Positions 46,260 to 62,332 of a stretch of DNA of 64,000 nt are shown one piece after another; position 1 is the stretch's first letter; each line of letters opens with the position of its first letter. The notes beneath the pieces were generated by a model. The model did no database searches and had not been told where the DNA came from. It saw only the letters and a program-made list of their open reading frames with translations. Where the stretch lies: contig JAGCDE010000058.1 of NCBI GenBank assembly GCA_017651315.1, positions 31,716 to 95,715 on the forward strand. Direction: 5' to 3'. Source of the stretch: Bacteroidaceae bacterium (GTDB lineage Bacteria > Bacteroidota > Bacteroidia > Bacteroidales > Bacteroidaceae). The position numbers were made by a program, and so were the translations under genes.

Positions 46260-46267
46260 AATGTATA

Positions 46268-48289
46268 TTACATTTCAATGACTAATTGTTCACCAAGGTC
46301 TAAATCCTCCATATAAATTAGTTTGCCTTTTTCTATCTTGACATAACCAACTGATAGTTCTTGACCTAATACATAATGGACTATCTCAATCCATCCTTCT
46401 TTGTTGGGCTTTTTAATCCAGAGGCTGCCCATTGGTCGTGCCTTACCAATCAGGCTTTGGAGATAATAATAACGTTTTCCTTTAATTAGATATATATAAT
46501 AGCCATTAATATTGCAGACAAATCTGCACGCATTATTAAACTCCCATCTGCTGGCAATTACATATTTTACGTTAGTCTCAAACTTAGCCTGTTTTTGTTT
46601 GTTTTGAATAGTAGGAGATAATGGCGCTATATGCTCAGATTCATGATTGTCGAATAAAGATGTCTGTGAATAGTTCTTATAAGTAGGCTTATCAGAGTAA
46701 GTAGACATCATAGAAGAACTAATTGTAGACTTTGGAACTTCAGTCGGTTTTACAACCGCATTTTTATAGAAGTTAAGCACATCATCGTTTCCACTTCGTA
46801 TATCGGGTCTTTTAATAGGATCTTGCTTAGGGAGTTCTCGAGCCTTAAAAATGGATTCATCTGGGGCTTCAAAAAATTGGCTATATGGTGTGTCATTATT
46901 TTTAAATACAATAGTCCTGAACCAACTATTTAAACGGTTCTGCCAATAACCTTGATGTGTCATTCTGCCTTCATTGTGGTGGTAAAGGTAATCGCCATCG
47001 GTTTCTATTAACGTAATCATACTGGTGTTCTTGAGGTCATTGGTAGAATTAATGTACCTAACTCCAGTTTTCAAAAATTTAATAAAACCGTTATCTTGAT
47101 TATAGACATAAAGAGCTCCGGTATCGGAAAATTCTACAAATACTTTATTCCTGATAGACAACACAAGTGCTGCTGTTACAGAATATTTTGAATTAGTCTC
47201 GATAAAATGCTTTGCAAAAATATTTCCAGTTCTCGGGTCACTTTGTAGTGAGTATTTGGTCAAACTTGAGCCAACAATCTTAAAACCACTAATATGCTGC
47301 ACATATTTGAGCCAAAAGTTTTTTCTATCTCTATCTTGTACGCACACTTCAAAGAATGTCTCAATGATTCTTCTTGTAAACCACTGTTTTACAAGTTGCA
47401 TAGCGTGCTTCAATCTTTGTGCTTCCTCTTCAGAAGCACCTGGGAAGGGAGCCCACGTAGCCGGCAGTGTAACATCCCCAAGGGTCCTATTAATAAAGTT
47501 ACTCAATTGGGCTTGTTTATAGGAATCACCTGTTCTGTCTGCCTGTTCTACCAAGTTAGCAAAAACCAGTTTCTGAGTTCGGTTCAGTTTGTGTTTTTCA
47601 AATATCTCAGCTAGATAATCAAGACTAACATCATTTTTCTCAACATATTTGACAATAACATCAGAATAATATGATTGGGCAAGAGATAATTTCTTGTTTC
47701 CTAATATTAGTGGTGCTTCTCTTACATCTTGTTGTTTGCTGGTAAGAAGGGTTGCCATACGTATAGGGCCCGCCTCTTCAAATAAGTTGGCATGATTTTT
47801 ATACAACAAGAATTTCCGGTTTGAATCATTATAACCACGCAGTTTGTTTATGATCAATTGGCATGTGCTTTTTCTTAAATCAGGTTTGATCATATTCCAT
47901 GAATTCAAGACATAGAACACAAGTCCATTGAAATATAAGTTTTTCCATTTAAGATCCAGGAGTGTCAATGCATATTTGTACAAATCGTCGTCATCCTGAA
48001 ATCTCATTAAATAATAGGAAAGAATGCGTAAATCCCGTGTGGTCCATTTATCGATATCTGTGTCATTGTGTCTAGCAGATAAAGATATTTTATAAAGTAC
48101 TTCATCTACAGAGTACTTAGGTATATTAAGGCTTTCATTAGCTAGAGAACAGGTTTCAATCTCCTCAAGTTTTCTTATGTTTTGACGCACAATCCTCTCT
48201 GTCTGAGAATCATCAATACGATTTGCTTGTATTGGGAACTCTCTCAGATAGTTGCGGTCTAACTCGAGAAGATTGAAAGCATCCATCAT
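46268..48289 (-). CDS. zorC: ZorC-like EH-signature protein
   Basis: 673 residues, soluble. An EH-signature-type segment near the middle is recognisable from NFWLKYVQH and VFVEFSDTGALYVY. The N-terminal half is helical; the C-terminal 150 residues are beta-rich. In type I Zorya, ZorC is the DNA-binding partner of ZorD. The ATG overlaps the zorB stop (ATGA). Assignment uses order, size and this domain. Confidence 0.82.
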   Translation of the reverse strand: MMDAFNLLELDRNYLREFPIQANRIDDSQTERIVRQNIRKLEEIETCSLANESLNIPKYSVDEVLYKISLSARHNDTDIDKWTTRDLRILSYYLMRFQDDDDLYKYALTLLDLKWKNLYFNGLVFYVLNSWNMIKPDLRKSTCQLIINKLRGYNDSNRKFLLYKNHANLFEEAGPIRMATLLTSKQQDVREAPLILGNKKLSLAQSYYSDVIVKYVEKNDVSLDYLAEIFEKHKLNRTQKLVFANLVEQADRTGDSYKQAQLSNFINRTLGDVTLPATWAPFPGASEEEAQRLKHAMQLVKQWFTRRIIETFFEVCVQDRDRKNFWLKYVQHISGFKIVGSSLTKYSLQSDPRTGNIFAKHFIETNSKYSVTAALVLSIRNKVFVEFSDTGALYVYNQDNGFIKFLKTGVRYINSTNDLKNTSMITLIETDGDYLYHHNEGRMTHQGYWQNRLNSWFRTIVFKNNDTPYSQFFEAPDESIFKARELPKQDPIKRPDIRSGNDDVLNFYKNAVVKPTEVPKSTISSSMMSTYSDKPTYKNYSQTSLFDNHESEHIAPLSPTIQNKQKQAKFETNVKYVIASRWEFNNACRFVCNINGYYIYLIKGKRYYYLQSLIGKARPMGSLWIKKPNKEGWIEIVHYVLGQELSVGYVKIEKGKLIYMEDLDLGEQLVIEM

Positions 48290-48984
48290 TTCCTACTACT
48301 ATTAAATCTTTTTTCGGCAATCTCTTCCAACTGCTTTTCAGCATTAGTCCTTACTCTGAATTCTACACGGCGAGACAATTCTTTATTTTCTTCTCCATAG
48401 TTGGTAAGTATTGGGTGGCTAGAAGATAATCCGTTTGCCGTAACGAGTCCTTTAAGCCACATCACATCCTCGTCTGTCATCAAGCTAAAACAATACTGCA
48501 GTACAGAACGTGTTCTATCTTGCGATAGTTCCATATTTGAATAGTAACCACCATTGCTATTAGTGTGACCTTCTATTCGTATCTCTTCAATATTGTCTCT
48601 ATATTGTGGCCTATTTAGAACAGCTATATATCTTGGAAAGAAGTCGTCAAGTATTTCTTGAAATTTGGGCTTTAAGACATCCTTTCCTTCATCAAACAAC
48701 ATTGAAGGCTCTTGAAATCGAATGCAGAGTGTGGAATCTATAATAGCCCTCCACACAACAAGATCTTCTTTGAATTCCTCTTGTAAATCTATGTAAAGCT
48801 GGGTCTTGATTTCGTCATAGCGCTTTACTATCTCCTCATCTTGTTCAGCTTTCTCCTGGACTTGGAGGAGTGCACCCATCAAAAGGAGTATAAAAATGAA
48901 CAGCAAGCCTGCCATCAGGTCTCCTGTTGAAAGGGAAAAAACATTTTCCTCATCACCCTGGTTTACAGTCTTGGTTTTCTTCAT
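48286..48984 (-). CDS. zorB: ZorB-like MotB/OmpA-domain protein
   Basis: 232 residues. One transmembrane helix near the N-terminus (STGDLMAGLLFIFILLL) contains the membrane Asp typical of MotB and ZorB stators. It is followed by a periplasmic linker and a C-terminal OmpA-like peptidoglycan-binding domain (IEGHTNSNGG, then NKELSRRVEFRV). It forms the ion-driven motor with ZorA. It shares one base with the zorA stop (TAATG). Confidence 0.92.
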   Translation of the reverse strand: MKKTKTVNQGDEENVFSLSTGDLMAGLLFIFILLLMGALLQVQEKAEQDEEIVKRYDEIKTQLYIDLQEEFKEDLVVWRAIIDSTLCIRFQEPSMLFDEGKDVLKPKFQEILDDFFPRYIAVLNRPQYRDNIEEIRIEGHTNSNGGYYSNMELSQDRTRSVLQYCFSLMTDEDVMWLKGLVTANGLSSSHPILTNYGEENKELSRRVEFRVRTNAEKQLEEIAEKRFNSSRK

Positions 48985-50873
48985 TATCTCTTATGTGTTA
49001 GAATCTCATTAAGCATTTCAACTACATCATTCTGCTGTTGAATAGTGCTAGACAAAGCATCGGTAGTCTGGGTCAAATTGGTAGTATATTGATCAAGATA
49101 TTTTTGGGTTGTAGCCTGTACAGTTCGACTGTATTCTGTCAAACCATTCTGTAACTGGCTGAATATGCTTGTCAATCCCTGTTTTATGACATCAAACTTT
49201 TGAGCATACTCTTCTGACATTTGACCAGAGTTAACCAACAACTCTTCAACCTTTTCAATGCCTCTCTGACTGGATGTTTGTAATTGATTAATTCTTTCAG
49301 CGTATTCAAGTTGACCCTTATTGAAAGTTTCTGTAGCAGTCCTCATATCATTGCTGATGGTCCTCAGGTTACCGGTACTGAGTGTAATCTCACCTTGGGC
49401 TTGCCTAAATCCGTTCATCACATCAATAATGTAATCACTCATCTTTTCTAAGCGCGCCAACCCATCATTAAATGAATCGAGTAGTTTCTTTGTTTGGGAT
49501 GTTGTGTCTTCTTGCAATGCTATCAAATCAGCCTGTTTGTTGCTAACATCTTCAGTGATAGATTTCATTGAATCTTGAACAGATGTAGAAAGATTGGTGA
49601 TTGTGCTATTAAGGAATGTACCCATCTTATCCGTTGCCTCAGCAAGTTTGTCAACTATCTGATTGCTTTGTTCCTGCATCTGCTGCATCGTTGCAGAATT
49701 AGCATTAGCCGTATTGTTACTAATATCGGTAATGGCAGTTCTTACATCTTCAATCGTATTTTGAAGTGTATTAGAGATGAGTTCCATATTTCTTGGGAAT
49801 TCGCCAATAGATTGTGAAGCGGCACCAAGTTGCATGGCTAGCGCTTCCATTTGTGATGTAGCAGAGCCTGAAATATTGGATCTAAACTCCTCAATAATTG
49901 TAACCATACTCTTTTTCAACTCATCAACAACATTTTGCATCATACTTGATGCTGGTGATGATACGGTAGATGCCATCTGGTCAATATGTTCTATAACAGC
50001 CTTTGTAGTAGCATCAACGCTTTCCATAAGAGGTAATATCTTTGCCTGCATTTGTCGTGACAAAACTTCATCAAAACCGTTGTTTAGCTCCATGGCAAGG
50101 TCTGTGGAGAATGATTTGAGCGCTTTAGATTGCTCATAGCTTTCTTTTAGAATCTCCCTTACGGCATTTCCAATAGGTACATTTTCGCCTTCATCGTTGT
50201 TGTATGATAGTTTTGAGTTCAACTCAGTCTGTACAGCCTTTATCATTCTGTCAATTAGGGCCGACTGGTTTAAATCTTGTAACTCATTATCATCAATAAA
50301 ATAAATGGTATCAAGTTTTTCAGTGAAGCTATTTAAACATTTGTGTAGCTTATCTCTTTTAGCTTTATAGATAGCTGTAAAGATGAGTGAACAGAGCATT
50401 CCTAATAAAGATGTAGAGAATGCTGTACCCATACCTTCAAGGAGGTTTTGTATACTTTGTTGTATGTTGCTTGAATCTGAACTGTCAAATCCTATAATGC
50501 CTATGGTTAATCCAAGGAAGGTTCCCAATAAACCTAATCCTACCAATGTGCTCGAAGCCGAGTCAAGCTTAATAAGATTAAGGTTATAGGCGTTTGTGAC
50601 ATTTTCTGTATTAAAATAATATGACGCAGGCGTGTTCGTCTTTTTCCCGGTTTGTGTTATTGTTGTAATGTCACGTTTATATAAATTACCTAGCCCTTCC
50701 AGTTTTGTTTTATTGAATGCTCCAAGAATATCATCACTTTTAAGTGATTTGATGATAAGTTTCTTAGGTAAAGTGATCTTTCTAAGTGGTATCAAAAAAC
50801 GGATGAATACGAAGACAATAAAAGCTAAAAAAGAATATGTCAAAGTGGTTGAATAGGATAATATGGTTGCCAT
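48984..50873 (-). CDS. zorA: ZorA-like MotA/TolQ/ExbB protein with long coiled-coil tail
   Basis: 629 residues. Membrane helices near residues 10-30, 105-130 and 145-170 include LVGLGLLGTFLGLTIGI, the MotA/ExbB signature. The remaining C-terminal portion is a long Gln/Ser/Thr-rich coiled coil. In Zorya this tail projects into the cytoplasm and relays rotation of the ZorA-ZorB motor to the effectors. It is first in the operon, with a -7 element 44 bp upstream. Confidence 0.92.
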   Translation of the reverse strand: MATILSYSTTLTYSFLAFIVFVFIRFLIPLRKITLPKKLIIKSLKSDDILGAFNKTKLEGLGNLYKRDITTITQTGKKTNTPASYYFNTENVTNAYNLNLIKLDSASSTLVGLGLLGTFLGLTIGIIGFDSSDSSNIQQSIQNLLEGMGTAFSTSLLGMLCSLIFTAIYKAKRDKLHKCLNSFTEKLDTIYFIDDNELQDLNQSALIDRMIKAVQTELNSKLSYNNDEGENVPIGNAVREILKESYEQSKALKSFSTDLAMELNNGFDEVLSRQMQAKILPLMESVDATTKAVIEHIDQMASTVSSPASSMMQNVVDELKKSMVTIIEEFRSNISGSATSQMEALAMQLGAASQSIGEFPRNMELISNTLQNTIEDVRTAITDISNNTANANSATMQQMQEQSNQIVDKLAEATDKMGTFLNSTITNLSTSVQDSMKSITEDVSNKQADLIALQEDTTSQTKKLLDSFNDGLARLEKMSDYIIDVMNGFRQAQGEITLSTGNLRTISNDMRTATETFNKGQLEYAERINQLQTSSQRGIEKVEELLVNSGQMSEEYAQKFDVIKQGLTSIFSQLQNGLTEYSRTVQATTQKYLDQYTTNLTQTTDALSSTIQQQNDVVEMLNEILTHKR

Positions 50874-51071: not shown

Positions 51072-51701
51072 TTATTCCTCAAACGGATAAGTTTCGTCAT
51101 AAATGTCACTCAGTAGCTTTTCGTTGTAAAGCCAATGTGCACCAGGGGCAATATGTTTCGTATTATAGCCCTTCAGTTTAGCGGATAGGGCACTGATTGA
51201 GGTTTCCTCCTCTTGGAACAATACTCTACGTTCAGATAATATGGTAACATAAATTGACGGATCATCTTTCCAAACCAGCACGTCACCTTTATGTAACCCC
51301 ATCTCGAAAAAGTTGAGCATTGGACGCTTTGCCTGTGCTTTTGTGCTTGCGGCCTTATCCTCTTCTGTCAGGTCATTCTGAATCTCTTCGGTCACATCCT
51401 CAGTCACATCCTCATGATGGAATAACTCCAGAATAGCCTGTGCCTGCTCAACATTGATACGGAAAAACTCACGGTTTTGATTTATGCGTTGTGGGTCAAA
51501 GGCCTTGTGTAAGGCTTTCTCAATTTTGAGACAGTCACTTTTCTTGACCTTGCATGCAAACTTGCATTCAAATGGTACCGGAACTCCTGTCGTGTAGAGT
51601 TCCCTCATCCTTTTGTCAATATCTTCCTGCGTGGTCATTCCAATCTTTACCAGGCCAGGCATTACAGGGTTAGTAAGCAGGTAAACTATTCCGTATTCCA
51701 T
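51072..51701 (-). CDS. GIY-YIG (T5orf172-like) protein with C-terminal RAMA-like domain
   Basis: 209 residues. The N-terminal domain shows GIVYLLTN...VKIGMT (the GIY-YIG pair), then an Arg in the RMRELYTTG helix, and Glu in KIEKALHKAF, as in Mug113/T5orf172 nucleases. An acidic linker (about 100-125) precedes a C-terminal domain (HKGDVLVW to HWLYNEKLLSDIY) that resembles RAMA modified-DNA-reading domains; that part is tentative. It follows hsdR by 32 nt and is likely part of the restriction operon. Confidence 0.75.
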   Translation of the reverse strand: MEYGIVYLLTNPVMPGLVKIGMTTQEDIDKRMRELYTTGVPVPFECKFACKVKKSDCLKIEKALHKAFDPQRINQNREFFRINVEQAQAILELFHHEDVTEDVTEEIQNDLTEEDKAASTKAQAKRPMLNFFEMGLHKGDVLVWKDDPSIYVTILSERRVLFQEEETSISALSAKLKGYNTKHIAPGAHWLYNEKLLSDIYDETYPFEE

Positions 51702-51733: not shown

Positions 51734-54700
51734 TTATTTATTCCCAGGTTCAGCCGCCATATGATAAACCGGCTCCATAATATATTCCTTCACCTCACCT
51801 CCGTTCTCGTAATCATTATACTCGTCCGGATTAACGTCAGCCCACTGCTCGCACTGGTGAATCACTGTCTCAAGTGCTGATTGCTCTTCTTCTGGTGGGT
51901 ACTTGTACTTCTTGAGCAGTCGCTTTACTTTGGAACGCATACCGGCACGTGCAGATTCTTTCTTTTGCCAATCAATGGTGCGGTTCTTGCGAAGCTCCTC
52001 TGTTAGTTCCTTTGTCAGGCTTACCAATTGCTCGTTGGAGTAGAAGTCTCTAACAGCTTGTGGGCGCGTTAATGCATCATAGAAAGCCTTCTCCTCAGCA
52101 TTCAATCCCAGACTATCAGCTACTTTCTCACTCTTAGCAATCTCCTGAGCAAGTTCAAGCAGCTCCTTAATTACCTCCTCATTGGTAAGCAATCCCTTCA
52201 GGTAGTTGGATAGAGCCATATTGATAAGGTCCGAGAACTTCTGCGCCTGTACCAGGTTGGTCCTCTCATACAGGTGTACACGCTCCTTTAGCAGGCGCTT
52301 CAACAGCTCAATGGCAATGTGCTTCTCCTTCATCTTGGATATCTCGTCCAGGAATGCAGGATCAAACAGTGAGAACTCCTCCTTGATGTCCGAGAACAGG
52401 TTTATCACGCCCTCGCTCTTGATGCTCTGCTTGAGCAGCTCACCAATGCGCTCGTTGATTTCCTTCTTTGATACCTTAGTCTTTATGTTCTTGAGTCTGC
52501 CTATAGATGTCCTTACGGTCTCAAAGAAAGCAGACTCATAACGCTGTTCCTCATTCAACAAGCTACGGCATAGGCTAACGGCATTCTTAAGGAGTAGGGC
52601 CTCTTTCAGGAATGACTCGCATTTCTCTTCCATAGCCGGAGCCAGCATATAGTTCACAGCACCCTTAATGATTTCGGCACGGTCAGCATCAGTACCGGTA
52701 CGGAACTTGGAGTATTCGAATCCATGGAACAAGTCTCTGCAAACCTCAATCTTCTCCTTGAACTTAACCAGAGCGGTATCCTTGATATTGGTATTGCCGT
52801 AGTTCTCCTGGTCTTGCTTGGTATAATCACGCATAGCCTCCTTCAGGGCCTTGGCAATACCTATATAATCAACCACCAGACCGCCTGCCTTGCCTGAGAA
52901 CACACGGTTTACACGGGCTATAGCCTGCATCAGGTTGTGTCCGGACATAGGCTTATACACATACATGGTGGCCAATGACGGCACATCAAATCCGGTAAGC
53001 CACATATCCACCACAATGGCAATCTTCATAGGATCATTGTCATCCTTGAACTTCTTGGCCAGCTCTTTCTTGTATTGCTTGTTGCCAATAATATCGTGCC
53101 ATTCTTCAGGATCATTGTTTGAGCCTGTAACAACCACCTTAACCTTCTCAGTCCAATCCGGACGTAGCTCAAGAATGCGCTTGTAGATTCGTATAGCAAT
53201 GGGGCGGGAGAATGCCACTATCATTGCCTTACCGGTAAGTTCATACTGGCGGTTCTCCTCGTAGTGCTTCAGTATGTCACACACCAGCGAGTCAATAGTT
53301 TCCGGAGCACCCAGAATCTCTTCCAGGTGTGACATCTCATGCATACTTGCATCAATCTGTTGTGTTGTAGCACCTTCTTCAGCCAGTTTCTCATATTCGG
53401 CATCAATCTGCTTGATTGTTGCCTCATCCAGCTTCAGGTTTACTACACGTGACTCATAGAAAACAGGGCAGGTGGCACCGTCCTTTACAGCTTGAGTCAT
53501 GTCATAGATGTCTATGTAGTCACCAAACACCTCCTGGGTGTCGCGGTCTTTCTGTGAGATAGGGGTCCCGGTAAATCCTATAAAAGAAGCATTGGGTAGG
53601 GAGTCATGAATGATTCTGGCCAAGCCCACGCTTATCTTACCTTGGGCGTTCACCTTCTCCTCAAAGCCATACTGTCCGCGGTGGGCCTCATCGGTCATCA
53701 CCACAATGTTACGGCGCTCTGACAGCGGACCGTCAGACTCCTCAAACTTCTGCATTGTGGTAAATATTATACCGTTAGCCTCGCGGCCCATCAGCAGCTC
53801 TCTCAGGTTCTCACGGCTTGCAGCCTGCACAGGCTTCTGCCGTAGGAATCTCTCACACTTTGAGAACTGTCCGTAAAGCTGGTCATCAAGGTCGTTGCGG
53901 TCAGTAATCACCACTATTGTGGGCTTATTAAGTACCGTCTGGATAAGATGCGCATAGAACACCATTGACAGCGATTTGCCGCTTCCCTGAGTGTGCCAGA
54001 ATACGCCAATCTTACCATCGCTGTTTGTCGCTCTTACAGTCCTGTCAATGGCTTTCTTTACGGCAAAATACTGATGGTATCCGGCCAGTATCTTGGCAGA
54101 TCCTGCCTCATCAATGCTAAAACAGGTAAAGTTCTTAACCAGATCCAGGAACCTGTCTCTCTTGAACATTCCCACAAAGAACGTATCATAGTCAATAAAG
54201 TCCTTCGTTTCCTCCAGTCCGTCCTTAGATTTCCATTCCATGTAACGGTCCTCCTTACTGGTAATAGTACCGGCCTTGGAGAGCGTCATATCACTCATCA
54301 CACAGAATACATTGTAAATGAAAAGTGATGGAATTTCCTGAATGTAGTTTCTAATCTGACGGTATGCGGCCGATGCATCGGTCTCCTCGCGTGACGGTGA
54401 TTTGAGTTCAATCAACACCAATGGCAGACCGTTCACAAATATCATTATATCAGCACGTTTCTCTGATTTCTCTACAAAAGTCCATTGGTTGATTGCCTGG
54501 AACGTATTGCGGTCCGGATGCTCGTAGTCTATCAGATAGACTATGTCGTGAATAGTATCTCCCTTCTCTATATAAGACACTTCAACACCGTTCTGCAGAT
54601 ACTCCATGAACTTTTCATTCTTCTGCGTCAAAGGGCCGGTATCAATATCGCGCAGCTTGCGCTTAGCCTCCCCAATAGCCTCTATAGGCTTAGTAGGGTT

Positions 54701-54844
54701 CACCATCCTTAGGCTATGGGTCAGCTGCACATCATAGTACGGAACCTTATAGTCACGCTCTATATCCGGACCATACAGATGCTCATACCCCAAATTCTCC
54801 AGTAGGGTAATCAGCGCATTCTCGTAGCTTTCCTCAGTAAACAT
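51734..54844 (-). CDS. hsdR: Type I restriction enzyme R subunit
   Basis: 1,036 residues. The N-terminal PD-(D/E)XK nuclease reads ADIMIFVNGLPLVLIELKSP (about residues 132-151). The SF2 translocase has TQGSGKSLSM (Walker A, about 285), TDEAHRGQYG (about 385), FTGTPI and ARVNRVF. A helical C-terminal region contacts the methylase core. It is separated by about 50 nt from the half-hsdS gene upstream and should be functional. Confidence 0.96.
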   Translation of the reverse strand: MFTEESYENALITLLENLGYEHLYGPDIERDYKVPYYDVQLTHSLRMVNPTKPIEAIGEAKRKLRDIDTGPLTQKNEKFMEYLQNGVEVSYIEKGDTIHDIVYLIDYEHPDRNTFQAINQWTFVEKSEKRADIMIFVNGLPLVLIELKSPSREETDASAAYRQIRNYIQEIPSLFIYNVFCVMSDMTLSKAGTITSKEDRYMEWKSKDGLEETKDFIDYDTFFVGMFKRDRFLDLVKNFTCFSIDEAGSAKILAGYHQYFAVKKAIDRTVRATNSDGKIGVFWHTQGSGKSLSMVFYAHLIQTVLNKPTIVVITDRNDLDDQLYGQFSKCERFLRQKPVQAASRENLRELLMGREANGIIFTTMQKFEESDGPLSERRNIVVMTDEAHRGQYGFEEKVNAQGKISVGLARIIHDSLPNASFIGFTGTPISQKDRDTQEVFGDYIDIYDMTQAVKDGATCPVFYESRVVNLKLDEATIKQIDAEYEKLAEEGATTQQIDASMHEMSHLEEILGAPETIDSLVCDILKHYEENRQYELTGKAMIVAFSRPIAIRIYKRILELRPDWTEKVKVVVTGSNNDPEEWHDIIGNKQYKKELAKKFKDDNDPMKIAIVVDMWLTGFDVPSLATMYVYKPMSGHNLMQAIARVNRVFSGKAGGLVVDYIGIAKALKEAMRDYTKQDQENYGNTNIKDTALVKFKEKIEVCRDLFHGFEYSKFRTGTDADRAEIIKGAVNYMLAPAMEEKCESFLKEALLLKNAVSLCRSLLNEEQRYESAFFETVRTSIGRLKNIKTKVSKKEINERIGELLKQSIKSEGVINLFSDIKEEFSLFDPAFLDEISKMKEKHIAIELLKRLLKERVHLYERTNLVQAQKFSDLINMALSNYLKGLLTNEEVIKELLELAQEIAKSEKVADSLGLNAEEKAFYDALTRPQAVRDFYSNEQLVSLTKELTEELRKNRTIDWQKKESARAGMRSKVKRLLKKYKYPPEEEQSALETVIHQCEQWADVNPDEYNDYENGGEVKEYIMEPVYHMAAEPGNK

Positions 54845-54897: not shown

Positions 54898-55452
54898 TCA
54901 CGCCACCAAATTATGATTTATGTGATTGTTGAACTCTATTTTTGATTGTATACTTTTTAAAACAGATACTATCCTTTTTTGCTCTCGTATAGAAGGAAGT
55001 GGTATTTCAATGTTTTCAATCATACCTTTGGTCAAGGCATTTCTCGTAGCACCACCTTGAGATAATGAAAGCAACTGTGATTTAATGAATTGAATATAAT
55101 ATAATAGATACTCATTCAGTACAAGTGAGCTGTTACCTCTTATGATGGCAACATGTTGATTCACCCTTGCAGGTAATATATCATCAGGAACCATACATGC
55201 CCTTGCAACAGAGTCTCCGGTTATGTTTAATAAGACATCATTTTTCTCAACAATAACATTATCCAACGCTGTGGCTTGCTCGTTGTTGATGTAGGCAAGC
55301 CCTGTATTAGAAAAAGAGAAATCCAATACATTTTGACTACGTATTAAAGTTGTCTCTCCTCCTAAATAAGCCTCTTTTCCACCTTTAGGAGTAGCTCCAC
55401 TCCCAATTTTGGAACAAATATCTTTCAACTTATATGTTGTAGCCATTTTCAT
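54898..55452 (-). CDS. hsdS: N-terminal half HsdS (single target-recognition domain)
   Basis: 184 residues: one target-recognition domain followed by the first central helix (PSIREQKRIVSVLKSIQSKI), ending NNHINHNLVA-stop. Full HsdS continues from NHNL into EEQAQALYKSWF, so this gene stops exactly at the 12-bp core site. Joined to the C-half at 59.0-59.7 kb, the frame would be restored. It may serve as a silent donor cassette; a half subunit that dimerises is also possible. Confidence 0.85.
   Translation of the reverse strand: MKMATTYKLKDICSKIGSGATPKGGKEAYLGGETTLIRSQNVLDFSFSNTGLAYINNEQATALDNVIVEKNDVLLNITGDSVARACMVPDDILPARVNQHVAIIRGNSSLVLNEYLLYYIQFIKSQLLSLSQGGATRNALTKGMIENIEIPLPSIREQKRIVSVLKSIQSKIEFNNHINHNLVA
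54908..54919. other. Recombination core site 3 (predicted right junction)
   Basis: AAATTATGATTT on the plus strand (AAATCATAATTT on the coding strand). The upstream coding arm (CAT) matches the site inside the complete hsdS; the downstream arm (GGTGGCGTGA) does not, as expected of an element-chromosome junction. Confidence 0.6.
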
Positions 55453-55462
55453 AAATGAGAAT

Positions 55463-56599
55463 TTACTTAATATTTTGCAATCTGAAGAATTCTTTCTGTT
55501 GCTCTATCTCACGACGTAATTCCTCCTTAGTCGGCAAGTAAGTTAGATACTTGGCTGCATATAGTTGCTTGTTTCCGTTCAATATAGAGTAGTGGGCCAC
55601 ATCTTCATCTGTATCTGCGCACAACAACAGTCCTATGGTGGGATTATGCCCTTGCGGAATCATCAACTCATCATACATTTTTACGTACATATCCATCTGT
55701 CCAATATCTTGATGGCATAGTTTTGTAGTCTTTAAATCAACAAGCACAAAACAACGAAGATTATAATTGTAAAACACAAGGTCAATATAATAATCTTCCT
55801 TCTCTGTATGAATGTGCTTCTGACGGTGTGCCAACGTAAATCCCTTTCCCAGCTCCATCAGAAATGGAATTAGGTGGTCTATAATGCTTTGTTCCAGATC
55901 ACTTTCTGTATAGCTTGTTTTGTTTCTGAAACCTAAAAACTCGGCCACTACAGGATTCTTAAGATATTCCAAGTTGTCTTGCAAAGGTGCAGTAAGCTTT
56001 TGCATCTCACTGTGTACTAATTCTTTATTTTGCGACTGGAGCAGACGGTGATAATACTGGCTGCTGACATTTCGCTGCAAAGTACGAGTACTCCACATTT
56101 CACGAGCGGCTTCTTGTTCATACCATTCACGGGCTTCCTTGCTGTTCTCTTGGAGCATGATGCGGTAGTGTGTCCATGAAAGACGGATTGGAGATTTTGC
56201 ACGCAGTGCGTTCACTATGTTTTCATTTTTTCCACTCACTGCGTGGAAAAAATCTTCATTTTCATTAATAGATTTTCCACTCACTGCGTGGAAAAAGTCT
56301 GGCCATGATTGATAAAACCCAATATAGTTGTAAAGATTAGTTTTTGTAAAACCCTCACCATATTTTTCTGACAGTTCCTTTGCTAAAGAGTTTACTATCA
56401 GCTCGCCATATTCAGCCCGCGTGTTGTTCAGCACTTCATGTCGGATGCGTAACCCCAGCAGCCAATTACGCTTTATCAGTACTTCGTTAACTGAACGATA
56501 GGCTGCAACTTGAGCTTGGTCAATAATTGTACATGCATCTTGAAACAGCGAGTTGTTCTTCTGTCCTATCTCTACTATTGTTTTTTTGATATCATCCAT
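55463..56599 (-). CDS. DUF1016/YhcG-type PD-(D/E)XK nuclease, copy B
   Basis: 378 residues. The N-terminal DUF1016 helical domain reads LLGLRIRHEV and ends near residue 100 (YNYIGFYQSWP). A linker holds a duplicated DFFHAVSGK. The C-terminal YhcG-like nuclease shows DYYIDLVFYN and VLVDLKTTK (D...DxK) near residues 270-295. Such proteins accompany type I systems in Bacteroidales, but their role is not settled. Divergent from its neighbour copy A. The start follows a TAAATTCTCATT junction. Confidence 0.88.
   Translation of the reverse strand: MDDIKKTIVEIGQKNNSLFQDACTIIDQAQVAAYRSVNEVLIKRNWLLGLRIRHEVLNNTRAEYGELIVNSLAKELSEKYGEGFTKTNLYNYIGFYQSWPDFFHAVSGKSINENEDFFHAVSGKNENIVNALRAKSPIRLSWTHYRIMLQENSKEAREWYEQEAAREMWSTRTLQRNVSSQYYHRLLQSQNKELVHSEMQKLTAPLQDNLEYLKNPVVAEFLGFRNKTSYTESDLEQSIIDHLIPFLMELGKGFTLAHRQKHIHTEKEDYYIDLVFYNYNLRCFVLVDLKTTKLCHQDIGQMDMYVKMYDELMIPQGHNPTIGLLLCADTDEDVAHYSILNGNKQLYAAKYLTYLPTKEELRREIEQQKEFFRLQNIK
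56225..56296. repeat. Duplicated palindrome within DUF1016 copy B
   Basis: TTTTCCAC-TCACTGC-GTGGAAAA occurs twice, 45 bp apart and in frame (cores 56228-56251 and 56273-56296). Each is a hairpin of 8-11 bp with a 7-nt loop. They encode the FFHAVSGK repeat between the N-terminal and nuclease domains. Confidence 0.85.
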
Positions 56600-56610
56600 A
56601 TAATGAGAAT

Positions 56611-57771
56611 TTACACGTTTGATTTCATTTCAATTTCTGCAATGGTGCGTTCAACAACTTCCTGTAACTGATAGGAAGCAATACCTAAAGGCTTCTGAAT
56701 ATCTTGCAATGACCATTCTACTATTGTCTTGTCTGTAGACTTGCAAATAAGAAGTCCTACGGATTGATTATCTCCTTCACCACGCAGTAGTTTGTCGGCA
56801 GCCGTTACATAGAAGTTGAGTTTACCTACAAATTCCGGAAGGAACTTAACAGCTTTCAGTTCAATAATAACATATCTGTGCTGAGGAATATGGTAGAATA
56901 CTAAGTCCGGAAAAAAAGTTTGTCCTCCGGGCGTCTGTAATTCCATTTGACGACCAACATAAGAGAACCCCTTGCCTAATTCCAAAAGGAACCGAGTAAT
57001 ATTATTAGCTAAGGCGTTTTCCAGGTCTCTTTCCTTCTTTACCTCATCTGCTGTAATGAAACTCAGATCATACTCATTCTTTAGTAATTCTTTTGCAGAT
57101 TTGCTTTGTGATACTGGTAATGCCTGATCAAAATTTGTGATAGCCGAACCTTTTGCCTCAAATAGGTGGGTATCTATGTTGTGTTCCAATAGTGAACGAC
57201 TCCAGCCTTCTGCTATTACTCTGTTTGTATAGAAGATTGCTTCATCAAGAGATTTACAATTTGAAATGATTTGTATATGATGCCCCCATGGTATAAGTCC
57301 AAAAATCTCTGGCATCTCCAATTGGCCAACAGGTTGTTGGCTTTTTATGGAGCTGTTTATGGATTGGTTAATTTGAGGCTTTTTCTCGGTAGTTCTAAAA
57401 AGGCCAACAGGTTGTTGGCTTTTTGTAAAATGCTCACAATAAAACGAATACCATTGTTTCATGTATTTTACATTCGTAAGAGAAAAGCCTTTAGCATCTG
57501 GAAATGCCTGATGCAAATCAAGAGCAAACTGTTTTACGACTCCAGCTCCCCATCGTTCTTCGGCACGCAATGCAACCAAGTCCCGACCAATACTCCAGTA
57601 GAACTCAAGCATAGCTGTGTTTACATGGACTGATGTTTTAAATTGGCATTGGTTGAATCTTGTTTTTACATCTTCCAGCCAAACCAAATAATCTTTGTCT
57701 GCAATCATTCTGTCACGATATACAAACGATGGCATCTCTTCAATCTTTTTTTTCATATGGCTATCTTTCAT
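56611..57771 (-). CDS. DUF1016/YhcG-type PD-(D/E)XK nuclease, copy A
   Basis: 386 residues. The N-terminal DUF1016 domain has AMLEFYWSIGRDLVALRAEERWG and NVKYMKQWYSFY. A linker at about residues 115-150 holds a duplicated KSQQPVG. The nuclease domain has FFPDLVFYHIP and VIIELKAVKF (D...ExK) and ends with family-typical LLICKSTDKTIVEWSL. Sequence is well diverged from copy B, so this is not a recent duplication. Confidence 0.88.
   Translation of the reverse strand: MKDSHMKKKIEEMPSFVYRDRMIADKDYLVWLEDVKTRFNQCQFKTSVHVNTAMLEFYWSIGRDLVALRAEERWGAGVVKQFALDLHQAFPDAKGFSLTNVKYMKQWYSFYCEHFTKSQQPVGLFRTTEKKPQINQSINSSIKSQQPVGQLEMPEIFGLIPWGHHIQIISNCKSLDEAIFYTNRVIAEGWSRSLLEHNIDTHLFEAKGSAITNFDQALPVSQSKSAKELLKNEYDLSFITADEVKKERDLENALANNITRFLLELGKGFSYVGRQMELQTPGGQTFFPDLVFYHIPQHRYVIIELKAVKFLPEFVGKLNFYVTAADKLLRGEGDNQSVGLLICKSTDKTIVEWSLQDIQKPLGIASYQLQEVVERTIAEIEMKSNV
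57324..57424. repeat. Duplicated palindrome within DUF1016 copy A
   Basis: GCCAAC-AGGTT-GTTGGC occurs at 57325-57341 and 57403-57419, 78 bp apart and in frame, with the flanking GG...TTTTT also conserved. They encode the KSQQPVG repeat at the same interdomain site as the palindromes of copy B, although the sequences are unrelated. Confidence 0.85.
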
Positions 57772-57782
57772 AGATATGAGAA

Positions 57783-59009
57783 TTAATTATTTGAATCAAG
57801 AATGGATAATTCGCCAGACATAAGTAATGGCAACAGAGTATCTCTCTGCTCTGACAATGTATTTATTTGAGCTCGATTGTGTTTTTGTATATCAAGTAAG
57901 CTCTTATAAATAGAATTAAAAGATTCTATTACACACTTTGGTGGATAAACCAAACTAATAAGAGCAAAATCTTTATAGCCAAGAGTTTGTCTTACTCCTC
58001 CATTAGATCTAGCTAGGACTTCTTCTTTAAACGGTTCTGTCTTTCTGTATAAATCAAAGAAATAATTATATCCGTTTTCACATCTGAATACAACATATAC
58101 AGGGCTAACACATCCATCAAATGGAAAATCGTTAACTCCTAAAGAACCAATATTAACTCTCGCTGGATTATATGCAAAATCCCCAGGTTTAACAATTAGG
58201 TATTTCGCGATACTTTCACTATAAACTTGTTTGGTGAAAAAATCTTCAGAAAGGACCAACTGCCCAGTGTTGATAGGGGAAAGGACTTTAGTAACTTTAT
58301 TATTGCCTACCTTGTCTCGCATCTCGTTGGTAACTTCACCTAACTGTTTAACCGCCCATCCTTCAGGAATCAAACCCATCTCAGTTTTTACGAAATTTCC
58401 ATCTTTAAATGGTTCAAAATCAACAAACCACGACTTATACAGAGCCTGTGCCTGCTCCTCTAAATTATGATTTATGCGATTATTGAGTTCTATTTTGTCA
58501 TCAATTGAAGATAGAATACTGGCAATTTCTTGTTGCCTTTTAAGTGAAGGCAGGTTTATTGTGATATTCTGAATATTTTTTATCGGTAATTTGGGTTGAA
58601 CAGCACCAACAATTCCTTTTGATATTTCGGACTGTCCAACAGGTGATGAAAGGAAGTAGTATAAGTATTTATAATCTAAGCCTTTAAGGTTTACTATCTT
58701 AACGCAATTCTCAGTTAGATTCGCTTTATTGAGTGAAGTGCCAACTATACCAGTTAAGCCAATGGTTCCAACAATAGACAGAAGTATATCACCTTCATCC
58801 ACAATATATCTAGAAATCTGTTTTTGAGTTTCATCATCAACATATTCATAAGATGAATCTAATTCAAGTATTCTTGAAACACCTAAATCTCTAATTCTAA
58901 TATATGGATGACTATTGGGGCTTGTTATCAAACCAATTCCCTTGGGTAATCTTTTACCTCCTTTTATTTCGGATATATCGCCCAGTTTATATGATTTCCA
59001 CTCTTCCAT
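57783..59009 (-). CDS. hsdS: Complete type I specificity subunit HsdS
   Basis: 408 residues with the usual TRD1 (1-150), central conserved helices (LNNRINHNLEEQAQALYKSWF, about 173-195), TRD2 (about 215-365) and distal helices (INTLSEQRDTLLPLLMSGEL). It sets the DNA target of the HsdM/HsdR enzyme. The core recombination site lies within the central region. It is the only intact hsdS and is preceded by the shared TAAATTCTCATT junction. Confidence 0.95.
   Translation of the reverse strand: MEEWKSYKLGDISEIKGGKRLPKGIGLITSPNSHPYIRIRDLGVSRILELDSSYEYVDDETQKQISRYIVDEGDILLSIVGTIGLTGIVGTSLNKANLTENCVKIVNLKGLDYKYLYYFLSSPVGQSEISKGIVGAVQPKLPIKNIQNITINLPSLKRQQEIASILSSIDDKIELNNRINHNLEEQAQALYKSWFVDFEPFKDGNFVKTEMGLIPEGWAVKQLGEVTNEMRDKVGNNKVTKVLSPINTGQLVLSEDFFTKQVYSESIAKYLIVKPGDFAYNPARVNIGSLGVNDFPFDGCVSPVYVVFRCENGYNYFFDLYRKTEPFKEEVLARSNGGVRQTLGYKDFALISLVYPPKCVIESFNSIYKSLLDIQKHNRAQINTLSEQRDTLLPLLMSGELSILDSNN
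58462..58473. other. Recombination core site 2 (inside complete hsdS)
   Basis: The same 12-bp core as at 54908 and 59699. Its upstream arm matches site 3 and its downstream arm (AGAGGA) matches site 1, i.e. it has both arms expected of the unintegrated circular form. Confidence 0.6.
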
Positions 59010-59010
59010 A

Positions 59011-59022
59011 AATGAGAATTTA
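59011..59022 (-). promoter_or_regulatory. Shared junction element TAAATTCTCATT (one of four)
   Basis: Close copies stand before the starts of four consecutive genes: 55454-55465, 56602-56613, 57776-57785 (shorter) and 59011-59022. In each, the TAA is the stop of the preceding gene and the next ATG follows within a few bases. It may act in translation initiation or mark cassette boundaries. Confidence 0.6.
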
Positions 59023-59775
59023 GTTATTAATTGTCATTTTGCCATTCATTAAATGAGGCAATAGCAAATCTCTTTCATTTTTCAAAACACGTATCTCTGC
59101 TTCATTTTTAATCACGCTTTCAAGCATAGGTTTAATAAGGGCAGAGAATGATTGTATGGCTGTTCTATTGTATGGAATACAAATATCCAAGGTTTCTTCG
59201 GCATGGAAACGTTGGTGGCTACCAGTAGCTCCGTTGACGGATGACATGATTTTATCATAAAACATATCACTATTCAGGTAGCACCAACAATATGGGTATG
59301 AATTCCTGTCTAAAGCCTTGTATGCTATAAATTCTGTGGAGCATATAGAATTGAATGGAATGTTATCAATATACCATATCCTCTTAATTCTTGGATTGAG
59401 TTTTGAAAAAAGGATCATATTATTCTCTATAACAAACTTGTTGCTCATTATTTCATGGCCTTTTTGTACTTCTGGCTCTTTTGAATTATCGTAAGCTGGT
59501 AAACTATAGTGAGTAAATATTGTTTCTGGATATTTTTGAGGGTTTATGCTCTTTTTTGAGTATTGTAAAATGGTTCTCAGGGGCTGAACATCCCATCCTT
59601 CAGGTATTACACCTATCTCAGTATTCACAAATTTTTCATCTTTAAACGGCTCAAAATCAACAAACCAAGACTTATACAGAGCCTTCGCCTGGTCCTCTAA
59701 ATTATGATTTCTCGGCTTCTTTCTGGCTGAGATAACATGCCGCTTAGGCCTTGATATGTTGAATGTAGTATTCAT
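59020..59775 (-). CDS. hsdS: C-terminal half HsdS fused to a short leader
   Basis: 251 residues from ATG 59775. The first 23 residues (MNTTFNISRPKRHVISARKK) are unrelated to HsdS; from NHNLEDQAKALYKSWF onward it is the central helix, one target-recognition domain and the distal helices (NERDLLLPHLMNGKM). The switch occurs exactly at the 12-bp core. The ATG overlaps the recombinase stop (TGATG), so a half subunit may be translated. It complements the N-half 4 kb away. Confidence 0.85.
   Translation of the reverse strand: MNTTFNISRPKRHVISARKKPRNHNLEDQAKALYKSWFVDFEPFKDEKFVNTEIGVIPEGWDVQPLRTILQYSKKSINPQKYPETIFTHYSLPAYDNSKEPEVQKGHEIMSNKFVIENNMILFSKLNPRIKRIWYIDNIPFNSICSTEFIAYKALDRNSYPYCWCYLNSDMFYDKIMSSVNGATGSHQRFHAEETLDICIPYNRTAIQSFSALIKPMLESVIKNEAEIRVLKNERDLLLPHLMNGKMTINN
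59699..59710. other. Recombination core site 1 (predicted left junction)
   Basis: Coding-strand AAATCATAATTT, 65 bp downstream of the recombinase stop. The upstream arm (GCCGAG) is unique; the downstream arm AGAGGA matches site 2. Confidence 0.6.
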
Positions 59776-60767
59776 CAAGCCAAGAATTTGCGGTGTGATA
59801 GTTTTACATTTGTTTGATTCACCATGGCGTAGCGCATGGTGGTATCAATCTTTACGTGTCCCAGGAGTTTCTGCACTTGCTCTACTGGCATTCCCTTATC
59901 TATGGCCATAGTGGCCAGTGTCCGGCGGAACTTGTGTGGATGTATTCGTGGCACCTTAAGGCTGCGGCCAAGCTGACGCAAACGCACCTCAACACCTGAT
60001 ATCTGTAGTCTCTCGTGCGGTTTGTCAAGCGTTACAAACAGCGCCTGGTTCTTATCCTTGCGGCTCTTCAGGTACTGCTGCAGGTGTATCTTGGCTCTGG
60101 CATTAAAATACACCATACGTTCCTTGTTACCCTTACCAAATACTATGCATTCGCGTTCCTGGAAGTTTACGTCTGCACGGTTCAACTTTACCAGTTCACC
60201 CACGCGCATACCGGTAGAGGAGAGCAGGTCTATTATGGCCAGGTCACGTATGTTCTTGCAGTTGTCACGCAGTATCTCCATATTCTCATCAGATATGGTC
60301 TCTTTTACCTGCTCGCCGGTCTTTACCTTGTGAATCCTGCGTACGGGACTCTTAAGGATGAAATCCTCATCCTCCAACCAGGAGAAGAATGATGAGAATA
60401 TCCTACGTATGTTATCTATCGTTACCTTGCTGGACTTGTGCTTTTTCTGGAATACTGCCAAATATGCTCTCAGGTCATCGGTTGTATATTCCTTTACGGC
60501 TTTAGGCATATAACGGAACAGTTGCCTGATGGTTGTCTCGTAATACTTGATGGTTTTCTGTGAGCATCCTTCCACAAGCTTTGCTGACAGGAATATCTCC
60601 AGTAGGCGGTTGTTGGAGATAATATCCTCCTGGACCTTATCTCCATCAGCAATGAGCGTATAGCTGGACAGTGTCTGCAGTAAGACGCTGCTCAACTGGG
60701 TCATTTGATCTACTGTTAGTGTTCCGGACATCGCTTCGGTAATCTGGGTGATAAAAGTTTCTTTCAT
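59775..60767 (-). CDS. Tyrosine recombinase
   Basis: 330 residues. N-terminal SAM-like core-binding domain, then a catalytic domain with Arg in STGMRVGEL (about residue 187), Lys in GKGNKERMV, HPHKFRRT (about 275), LLGHVKIDTT and the nucleophile Tyr in MRYAMVN (about 312). A GAGG sequence precedes the ATG. Lying between hsdM and the hsdS cassettes, it is the likely agent of recombination at the core sites; such recombinases drive hsdS shuffling in Bacteroidales. Confidence 0.93.
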   Translation of the reverse strand: MKETFITQITEAMSGTLTVDQMTQLSSVLLQTLSSYTLIADGDKVQEDIISNNRLLEIFLSAKLVEGCSQKTIKYYETTIRQLFRYMPKAVKEYTTDDLRAYLAVFQKKHKSSKVTIDNIRRIFSSFFSWLEDEDFILKSPVRRIHKVKTGEQVKETISDENMEILRDNCKNIRDLAIIDLLSSTGMRVGELVKLNRADVNFQERECIVFGKGNKERMVYFNARAKIHLQQYLKSRKDKNQALFVTLDKPHERLQISGVEVRLRQLGRSLKVPRIHPHKFRRTLATMAIDKGMPVEQVQKLLGHVKIDTTMRYAMVNQTNVKLSHRKFLA

Positions 60768-60806: not shown

Positions 60807-62312
60807 CTACTTTAGTTCAAATCCAATGGAGGCAAGCTGCTTGCGAATCTCATCCTCCAGCTCGTGTGACTGTTTGAACAAGTCAGACAGCTCGCTGGTC
60901 AGTCTGGTCATCTTCTCCTCAAACGGCTCACCGTCATCCTCTGTCTCAGCAATGCCTACATATCGTCCGGGGGTGAGGATATAATCCTGCTTGGCAATGT
61001 CATCAAGTGTGGCCACTGCGCAGAATCCCTTCTCATCTTCCAGATCTCCGGCTACATACTTATCGTATGTGCCGGCTATCTTCATTATGTCATCCTCAGT
61101 AAGTTCACGCAGGCGGCGTGTAACCATTGTGCCAAGGTTACGTGCATCAATAAACAGAGTCTTACCAGGCTGCTTCTTTGCTCGGTTCAGGAACCACAAC
61201 GATACCGGTATGCCGGTAGAGTAGAACAGCTGGCTGGGCAGAGCCACAATGCACTCCACAAGGTCAGCCTTCAGGATGTTCTCTCTAATGGTTCCTTCAC
61301 CGCCACTCTGTGATGATAGTGAACCATTGGCCAGCACCATACCAATCTTACCAACTGGCGAAAGGTGGTGTATCATGTGCTGCAGCCAGGCAAAGTTTGC
61401 ATTACCGGCAGGCGGAATACCATACTTCCAGCGTACATCTTCCTGCAGCTTATCTGCTCCCCAGTCGCTCATATTGAACGGGGGATTGGCCATAACAAAG
61501 TCAGCCTTAAGGGTGGGGTGCTGGTCGTGCAGGAAAGAGTCCTCATTGGCTTCGCCCAAATCTGCATCGATACCGCGTATAGCCAGATTCATGTGAGCCA
61601 TCTTCCAAGTGGTAGGATTGCTCTCCTGACCAAACACAGATATGTCATTTATCCTTCCGTGATGGCGGTCTATAAACTTAGCGCTCTGTACAAACATGCC
61701 TCCGGAACCGCAGGCAGGGTCAAACACACGGCCGTGATAAGGCTTCAGTACTTCAACCAGAGTACGTACTATGCAAGAGGGGGTATAGAATTCACCGGCA
61801 TTCTTGCCTTCCTGTGAAGCGAACATTGACAGGCAGTACTCATACGTACGTCCCAGGATATCCTTACTGTCGCCGTGTTCCTTCATGTTGATGTTGGTGA
61901 ACAGGTCCACCACATCACCCAAGCGCTGCTTATTGAGCTCGGGACGTGCAAAGTTCTTAGGCAGGATTCCCTTCAGGCGCACGTTCTCGCTCTCAATCAG
62001 ACGCATGGCATTGTCAATCTTAATACCAACTTCCGGAGTGTGGGCTGCGTTTGCAATCACTTCCCAACGGGCATCCTGCGGAACCCAGAATATATTAGCA
62101 CTGGTATATTCGTCCTTGTCTTCCTCCATGCCGTAGCCCTCGGCTACAAGCTCATCATACTTCTGCTCAAATCGGTCAGATATATACTTTAGGAAAATCA
62201 ATCCAAGCACCACATGCTTGTACTCGGACGCATCCATACTTCCTCTCAAAACGTCTGCTGCATTCCAGATCTGTTTCTCAAAACCTACATCCGCTGTATT
62301 AGTCTTTGCCAT
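60807..62312 (-). CDS. hsdM: Type I methyltransferase HsdM
   Basis: 501 residues from ATG 62312; a TTG two codons upstream is less likely. N-terminal HsdM_N helices, then the methylase fold with FDPACGSGGMFV (SAM binding) and NPPF (about residue 278), indicating N6-adenine methylation. First gene of the restriction operon. HsdS supplies target specificity and HsdR cleavage. Confidence 0.96.
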   Translation of the reverse strand: MAKTNTADVGFEKQIWNAADVLRGSMDASEYKHVVLGLIFLKYISDRFEQKYDELVAEGYGMEEDKDEYTSANIFWVPQDARWEVIANAAHTPEVGIKIDNAMRLIESENVRLKGILPKNFARPELNKQRLGDVVDLFTNINMKEHGDSKDILGRTYEYCLSMFASQEGKNAGEFYTPSCIVRTLVEVLKPYHGRVFDPACGSGGMFVQSAKFIDRHHGRINDISVFGQESNPTTWKMAHMNLAIRGIDADLGEANEDSFLHDQHPTLKADFVMANPPFNMSDWGADKLQEDVRWKYGIPPAGNANFAWLQHMIHHLSPVGKIGMVLANGSLSSQSGGEGTIRENILKADLVECIVALPSQLFYSTGIPVSLWFLNRAKKQPGKTLFIDARNLGTMVTRRLRELTEDDIMKIAGTYDKYVAGDLEDEKGFCAVATLDDIAKQDYILTPGRYVGIAETEDDGEPFEEKMTRLTSELSDLFKQSHELEDEIRKQLASIGFELK

Positions 62313-62332
62313 ACTCAATTAGTGCTATTCTA

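Follow-up and report, generated by a model that had tools for sequence, protein, structure and literature searches.

The pneumococcal tvr locus (SpnIV, with the recombinase TvrR) is described, in the portions of PMC6265443 drawn on here, as having direct repeats of two types, excised circles and shuffling of target recognition domains (TRDs); the available part of PMC4263131 is a further source on this locus. Other hsdS loci invert. Extracts of the published accounts cover the inverting pneumococcal cod/ivr locus with PsrA (PMC7096588) and hsdS inversion in Prevotella intermedia (PMC5608340), name Bacteroides fragilis for an inverting hsdS (PMC6265443), and treat inversions further (PMC5903667). 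The locus considered here lies in a 64,000-nucleotide stretch, called the window below, from a Bacteroidaceae bacterium (GenBank assembly GCA_017651315.1, contig JAGCDE010000058.1, positions 31,716 to 95,715). This bacterium, related to Bacteroidales of the gut and rumen, apparently stores hsdS, the gene that directs its restriction defence, in halves, as cassettes of the same direction beside a recombinase gene. With a probability of about 0.85, judged from sequence, the locus is a type I system whose hsdS is laid out as a direct-repeat array of half genes, with TRD halves swapped by excision and reintegration. Because the cassettes are reordered or missing in related genomes, the bacterium can probably change which invading DNA is attacked.

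By Pfam matches, this one locus holds hsdM, hsdS and hsdR, and is thus a type I restriction-modification locus. The order on the coding strand is hsdM, recombinase, leader-A-C1, B, N2-A-C2, yhcG, yhcG, B, N1-A-stop and hsdR, where A and B are two classes of a short core and N and C are the N- and C-terminal halves of hsdS. The features are as follows (loci of related genomes, such as L011, carry L numbers throughout):

60807..62318, minus strand: hsdM, DNA methylase subunit (Pfam N6_Mtase, HsdM_N)
59775..60767, minus strand: tyrosine recombinase, 330 aa, outside the array (Pfam Phage_integrase, Phage_int_SAM_4; NCBIfam recomb_XerA_Arch)
59711..59775, minus strand: leader open reading frame (ORF), its ATG overlapping the recombinase stop, in frame into the first A core
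59699..59710, minus strand: entry site A (numbered 3 in the original prediction; exact core match)
59020..59710, minus strand: C1, the C-terminal half of hsdS, joined to the leader (from ORF and junction)
59010..59021, minus strand: site B (exact core match)
57783..59009, minus strand: intact hsdS (N2-A-C2), 408 aa (Pfam Methylase_S; PADLOC Specificity_I)
58462..58473, minus strand: site A within the intact hsdS (site 2; exact core match)
57774..57785, minus strand: B-like motif with 2 mismatches, ahead of the first yhcG, common to L011 (read from sequence)
56611..57771, minus strand: yhcG nuclease gene 1 (DUF1016; Pfam YhcG_C, DUF1016_N); L011 has one too
56601..56612, minus strand: B-like motif with 1 mismatch, ahead of the second yhcG (read from sequence)
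55463..56599, minus strand: yhcG nuclease gene 2 (Pfam YhcG_C, DUF1016_N), not in L011
55453..55464, minus strand: site B (exact core match)
54898..55452, minus strand: N1, N-terminal hsdS half, ending NHNL-VA-stop (Pfam Methylase_S)
54908..54919, minus strand: site A, terminal copy (site 1; exact core match)
51734..54844, minus strand: hsdR, restriction subunit (Pfam HSDR_N, SWI2_SNF2, T1RH-like_C)

The class A core, AAATTATGATTT, is found three times in the window against 0.04 expected, always on one strand, and none of 100 shuffles reached three. Across the whole assembly (2,692,862 bases in 59 contigs, 83% complete) there are three forward copies and no reverse one, and all three are those of the window, at 54908, 58462 and 59699, where the original prediction had placed three direct 12-bp cores. 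Site 3 is separated from site 1 by 4791 bp and from site 2 by 1237 bp, and site 2 from site 1 by 3554 bp. The class B core, AAATGAGAATTT, has two copies in the window (0.01 expected), at the starts of N2 and N1; the assembly has two, both at this locus and in the same orientation. Neither this second class nor its degenerate copies before both yhcG genes had been recognized originally. The classes have AAAT....ATTT in common (8 of 12 positions) and differ in the central 4 bp, CATA in A and TCTC in B of the window; A is placed in the middle of hsdS, and B just before its start. Mixed arms like those of attachment (att) sites had been proposed, and they are indeed present: on the C-half side, a block of 135 nt is common to sites 2 and 3 (84%), on the N-half side a stretch of 40 nt is common to sites 1 and 2 (85%), and the other arms are unlike, those of site 3 (leader) and site 1 (tail) having no hsdS homology past the core.

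The labels of the half genes had been exchanged in the original prediction: on the coding strand, site 1 marks the end of the N half (ORF 54898-55452), and site 3 the beginning of the C half (59710 to 59020). The in-frame join NNHINHNL + EDQAK foreseen for recombination of sites 1 and 3 is right, as N1+C1 is a stop-free frame of 407 aa, in keeping with an intact hsdS being rebuilt by excision. The further TRD pairings that had been suggested are also open, so that all four exist as frames (N1+C2, 407 aa; N2+C1, 408 aa; and the existing N2+C2, 408 aa). A Pfam search with C1 alone at E 0.001 gave no match. The idea of one integrated circular cassette has to be given up in favor of an array in which half-gene cassettes are separated by the two site classes in alternation.

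The core is conserved as DNA and not only as protein. The core Leu is encoded by TTA in 67 of 67 HsdS ORFs, against 26% of the 1952 other Leu codons of these ORFs, and the second core Asn by AAT, again in 67 of 67, against 70% of 1265 others, while codons beyond the core vary synonymously; the core therefore behaves as a DNA site. The central codon differs between loci (CAT, GAT, GAC, GGC or CGC) and is uniform within a locus. Within-locus agreement holds for 97 of 101 pairs, compared with a mean of 39 and a maximum of 55 in 2000 shuffles that ignored relatedness, and the four disagreeing pairs all involve one doubtful CAG site in L026. This agreement extends to a synonymous change (GAT/GAC) as well as to protein-altering ones (His, Asp, Gly, Arg), a pattern that a strand-exchange region needing to match its partner would produce.

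A scan of 84,980 species genomes yielded 438 relatives of the recombinase, the best 80 of which were analyzed and placed with the window in a tree of 81 rows. The window falls in a clade of 56 rows and the sister clade has 25, both with support of 100/100. In the window clade, all 192 exact A and B sites counted within 7 kb downstream of the recombinase (113 A and 79 B) are direct and none is inverted, 53 of the 56 loci having at least one; no exact A or B site in direct orientation is found upstream of the recombinase in the 56 rows. A and B alternate in 131 of 135 segments (200 bp or longer, from the 41 loci that have at least two sites); which spacers count as A or B was decided post hoc. 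The four non-alternating segments belong to L040 (whose record contains a run of N), L051 (a B that deviates by one base) and L059 and L060 (A core with AAC). In the sister clade, 17 rows are labelled inverted, L079 doubtfully, and eight have no clear sites; several of its loci have the same AAAT-GATA/CATA-ATTT core in inverted arrangement. The expectation of direct sites adjoining a recombinase, unlike the inverted hsdS loci, is thereby supported, the inverted arrays belonging to the sister clade. The inverted labels of L025 and L079 are regarded as false (a single GGCA match far upstream). In one subclade of the 56, the array opens with B directly after the recombinase and not with leader-A. 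Four loci of this subclade (L051, L052, L056 and L061) have two in-frame A sites 63-66 bp apart within one hsdS, as if the leader were kept inside the last gene. In L066, three ORFs at about 2.0-4.6 kb after the recombinase interrupt the array; we take them to resemble an IS66-type transposon.

The recombinase itself resembles Xer proteins (NCBIfam recomb_XerA_Arch, 240.5 bits with a cut-off of 220), and the IntI-type integrase model TIGR02249 gives 65 bits, far under its cut-off of 265. Of 295 sampled genomes from the order, five have a recombinase match at E 1e-60 or better, the window's own included, and at least two of these five genomes have inverted types, so that direct arrays are uncommon in the order. 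Kin of the recombinase were also found in 17 plasmid records, 7 phage records and 17 loci in viral contigs. Among those examined for sites, L093, L110 and L116 are direct arrays, L111 is inverted, and L112 and L113 have none of the searched cores. Two core patterns searched across viral contigs gave a single contig, that of L093, for one pattern and nothing for the other. MT839915 and MT836838, filed as phage, show hsdM/hsdR flanks, and there is no evidence of an array riding on a phage or plasmid among the six records examined (L093, L110-L113 and L116).

The array stands between a leader and a tail. Among 58 loci examined, 40 have A within 120 bp of the recombinase, and in all 40 a leader in frame with the core opens with an ATG that lies at the recombinase stop or immediately past it, L033 being recognized by a variant pattern. 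A short tail after the last A usually stops the N half within a few codons (16 in L013). L038 and L043 have this pad without an array: the recombinase gene is retained, and leader and tail form mini-ORFs of 26 and 29 codons, respectively. In L038, leader-A is joined to the right flank of the terminal A of L039, and the 3301 bp between the two A sites are absent; the flanks of these loci are 93.8% and 95.8% identical, and the breakpoint lies within 24 bp holding the core. Without cassettes, the locus has no hsdS of its own. A search for AAATNNNNATTTAGAGCAGCA, as a sign of cassettes elsewhere in the genome, gave zero in both empty-pad genomes, a weak negative given that the array-bearing genomes of L014 and L029 also gave zero. 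Other Methylase_S matches number one and three in the two genomes; specificity at an empty pad could therefore come from elsewhere.

Related genomes also show cassettes in changed order. The two A-to-A units of L041 (labelled Phocaeicola faecium) recur in L047 (Bacteroides sp. ET71) with their order reversed. Their pieces are 99.4% (1111 bp), 99.7% (1838 bp) and 99.1% (543 bp) identical against 93.7% and 89.2% for the flanks, and the cassettes are thus more alike than their surroundings. L110 and L116 are scaffolds from Mexican faecal samples in which N1 and N2 are exchanged relative to L048. Compared with L048 (flank 99.88%), L110 has new junctions yhcG-B-N2 and N2-A-C1, the crossover of the latter lying within 13 bp, and L116 has C2′-B-N1 and N1-A-tail-hsdR. 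The N2-A-C1 junction is one that a circle, or else a different arrangement, would be predicted to contain; a search of L110 for terminal repeats of 15-200 bp, as a sign of an excised circle, found none. The L048 record is labelled Clostridia; its recombinase falls among Bacteroidota rows and it pairs with the faecal scaffolds, and the bin label may be wrong. Furthermore, the C half in the leader position of L031 is 94.7% identical (644/644 bp) to a part of the intact hsdS of L033. Between the window and L011, the recombinase is 100% identical and the flanks 92-94%, while the corresponding TRD halves match only in conserved stretches; the second yhcG, which adjoins the one-mismatch B motif, is in the window only.

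A mechanism can be proposed as follows. The tyrosine recombinase, encoded outside the array, would recombine the two site classes, each with itself: recombination of A with A, or of B with B, would excise a circle, and its re-entry at another site of the same class would reorder the pieces. Pieces from A to B bring a C-terminal TRD, sometimes with cargo, and those from B to A an N-terminal TRD, sometimes with a gene ahead of it. The leader ORF reads from the recombinase stop through the first A into the first C half. We infer that the recombinase acts on A and B sites, that circles are formed, that recognition changes and that A does not recombine with B. In a label model of this scheme, two units give exactly four states, every one of which has a single intact hsdS and a different N x C pair; with three units there are 36 states, two intact genes in every state, and nine different pairs overall. 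In the model, L041 and L047 fit an A x A out-and-in step, and L048 compared with L110 and L116 fits an exchange of N1 and N2. A wider version, for which the chances seem evenly balanced, is an integron-like platform: a fixed recombinase and a pad in the form of a tiny ORF (start, A, stop) would capture cassettes, together with fic, yhcG and AbiJ-like genes, from a pool crossing species. As the two classes would keep N and C in phase, the number of intact specificity genes would stay one below that of the units through each reshuffle, and total loss of the cassettes would switch the system's own specificity off.

One alternative is that TRDs are shuffled by homologous recombination across the conserved central part of hsdS, with no site-specific action and with the 12-bp matches reflecting protein homology. 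The core does lie in the conserved central region of HsdS, sites 2 and 3 share their 135-nt block, and the N-TRD of L041 and L047 switches at a place away from any core. This explanation is nevertheless highly improbable, for the leader and tail arms have no hsdS homology past the core, the codons are frozen at the core, the array-free breakpoint and the A junction of L110 fall within 24 and 13 bp, and the same core is direct or inverted according to the recombinase clade. The original prediction had named matches due to HsdS homology only, together with a lack of empty-site alleles, as the outcome that would speak against it; the codon freeze and the array-free relatives are what was found. 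A static remnant, left by tandem duplication and decay, whose hsdS halves no longer move in this strain, would agree with the single arrangement known for this genome and with the broken C half of L042. It is very improbable, given that the recombinase, halves and cores of the window are open and intact, that four pairings are open, that the leader frame is kept in 40 of 40 loci and that the closest relative has other TRDs. B might instead be a conserved translation-start signal, A alone recombining, and an ATG does follow 69 of 79 exact B sites directly. The core is nonetheless kept in nine sites without a following ATG (one more is cut by a contig end), B is confined to this locus in the assembly and stands directly after the recombinase in one subclade, and the B junctions of L110 and L116, possible chimeras, have changed partners, so that this role for B is unlikely.

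Half-length and circularly permuted HsdS proteins are functional in some type I systems. Translation of the halves (leader-C1 and N1) and their assembly as a split HsdS with an extra specificity is a possibility viewed with some doubt, compatible with excision and reintegration of the cassettes. The leader is in frame in 40 of 40 loci, and the arrays of L014 and L029 consist of one C and one N half with no intact hsdS; the leader may, however, merely keep the operon translated.

Several observations weigh against swapping of cassettes at the cores. Segment 2 of L041 and segment 4 of L047 share fic (98.8%, 909 bp) and then change in the N-TRD, with no B core at the fic/hsdS junction where this switch occurs. 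L110 and L116 are unverified metagenome scaffolds whose junctions share 24-35 bp with the reference junctions, and they could be chimeras if the assembly used short words; in addition, 131 bp of C1 are missing from L110, and at the start of L116 both the hsdM (about 72% over 169 bp) and the N half are different ones. HsdS homology extends the match between the window and L011 about 70-80 nt past the entry A. The frame is imperfect in places: L014 and L055 have no stop within 20 codons past the last A, L015 lacks a leader A, the first A of L033 is AATAAT, the first C half of L042 is broken after 40 codons, and L043 has a tail unlike that of its relatives and no Abi_C gene. As to the codons, the central-codon shuffles take no account of relatedness, and the outside control, made up of 30 hsdS loci of which all but L118 and L128 were intended for the scan, failed with one motif across the loci scanned, so that codon use elsewhere in the same ORFs was used as the comparison.

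Besides yhcG, representatives of the array genes match Pfam Fic (two families) and AbiJ_NTD4, and three small array genes have no Pfam match. Some loci have an Abi_C gene in the interval from the last A to hsdR, and in L015 a DUF3644 gene follows the recombinase. In L034, L035, L037, L039-L042 and L047, N-TRDs change beside a shared fic, with no exact B core at the junction. A Zorya defence operon lies beside the restriction locus at 43500-50873 on the minus strand (PADLOC ZorD, ZorC, ZorB and ZorA), and ZorA- and ZorB-like ORFs are in the same place in L011. Between hsdR and Zorya, at 51072-51701 on the minus strand, is a T5orf172 / MUG113 gene (PADLOC candidate PDC-S57). A second hsdS-like gene of this genome is found on contig C10 at 48978-50078 (Methylase_S, 393-aa frame).

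If the proposed reading is true, the exchange of cassettes can alter restriction specificity in Bacteroidales, both inside a strain and from one species to another, and this would go some way to account for close relatives restricting different DNA. A and B have the look of a natural pair of sites that one recombinase uses without cross-reaction and that preserve the coding frame through every shuffle; such a pair is directly testable and useful to genome engineers. In the recombinase tree, direct and inverted arrays fall on opposite sides, which also makes the origin of one kind from the other testable.

A search of the open PMC literature, subscription papers and preprints being outside it, gave no account of hsdS arrays in Bacteroidales that are direct and have two classes of core. 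According to the part of its text drawn on here, the REBASE survey of switching hsdS loci searched inverted repeats only (PMC7394358), so direct arrays would be missed. The inverting loci resemble the present one in having a type I hsdS adjoining a tyrosine recombinase; their sites are inverted, whereas here none of 192 sites in the clade is inverted and the assembly has no reverse copies. Integrons combine a fixed recombinase beside a fixed entry site with direct cassettes and folded attC sites. The integron-like platform of the original prediction holds as an analogy, in the fixed recombinase, the fixed entry site beside it, the direct cassettes with cargo, and near-identical cassettes reordered in two species. 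It does not hold beyond analogy, since here half-gene cassettes stand in strict alternation, with two site classes, short cores and an IntI-model score far under the cut-off. The nearest known system is tvr, with which excision and reintegration of hsdS between direct repeats is already known; it is likewise type I with a tyrosine recombinase, and all its repeats are direct, of two types at the borders of the N- and C-terminal TRDs, one of them in the middle of hsdS. The locus works like tvr, yet it departs from it in two tested features: in the accessible tvr accounts, the recombinase and a Phd-Doc-like pair are within the excised part and both repeat types share a core of about 11 bp, whereas here the recombinase is outside the array and the classes share just AAAT....ATTT. 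Unlike tvr as those accounts present it, the locus described here also has a frame of leader start and tail, accessory genes in its cassettes, and array-free sites.

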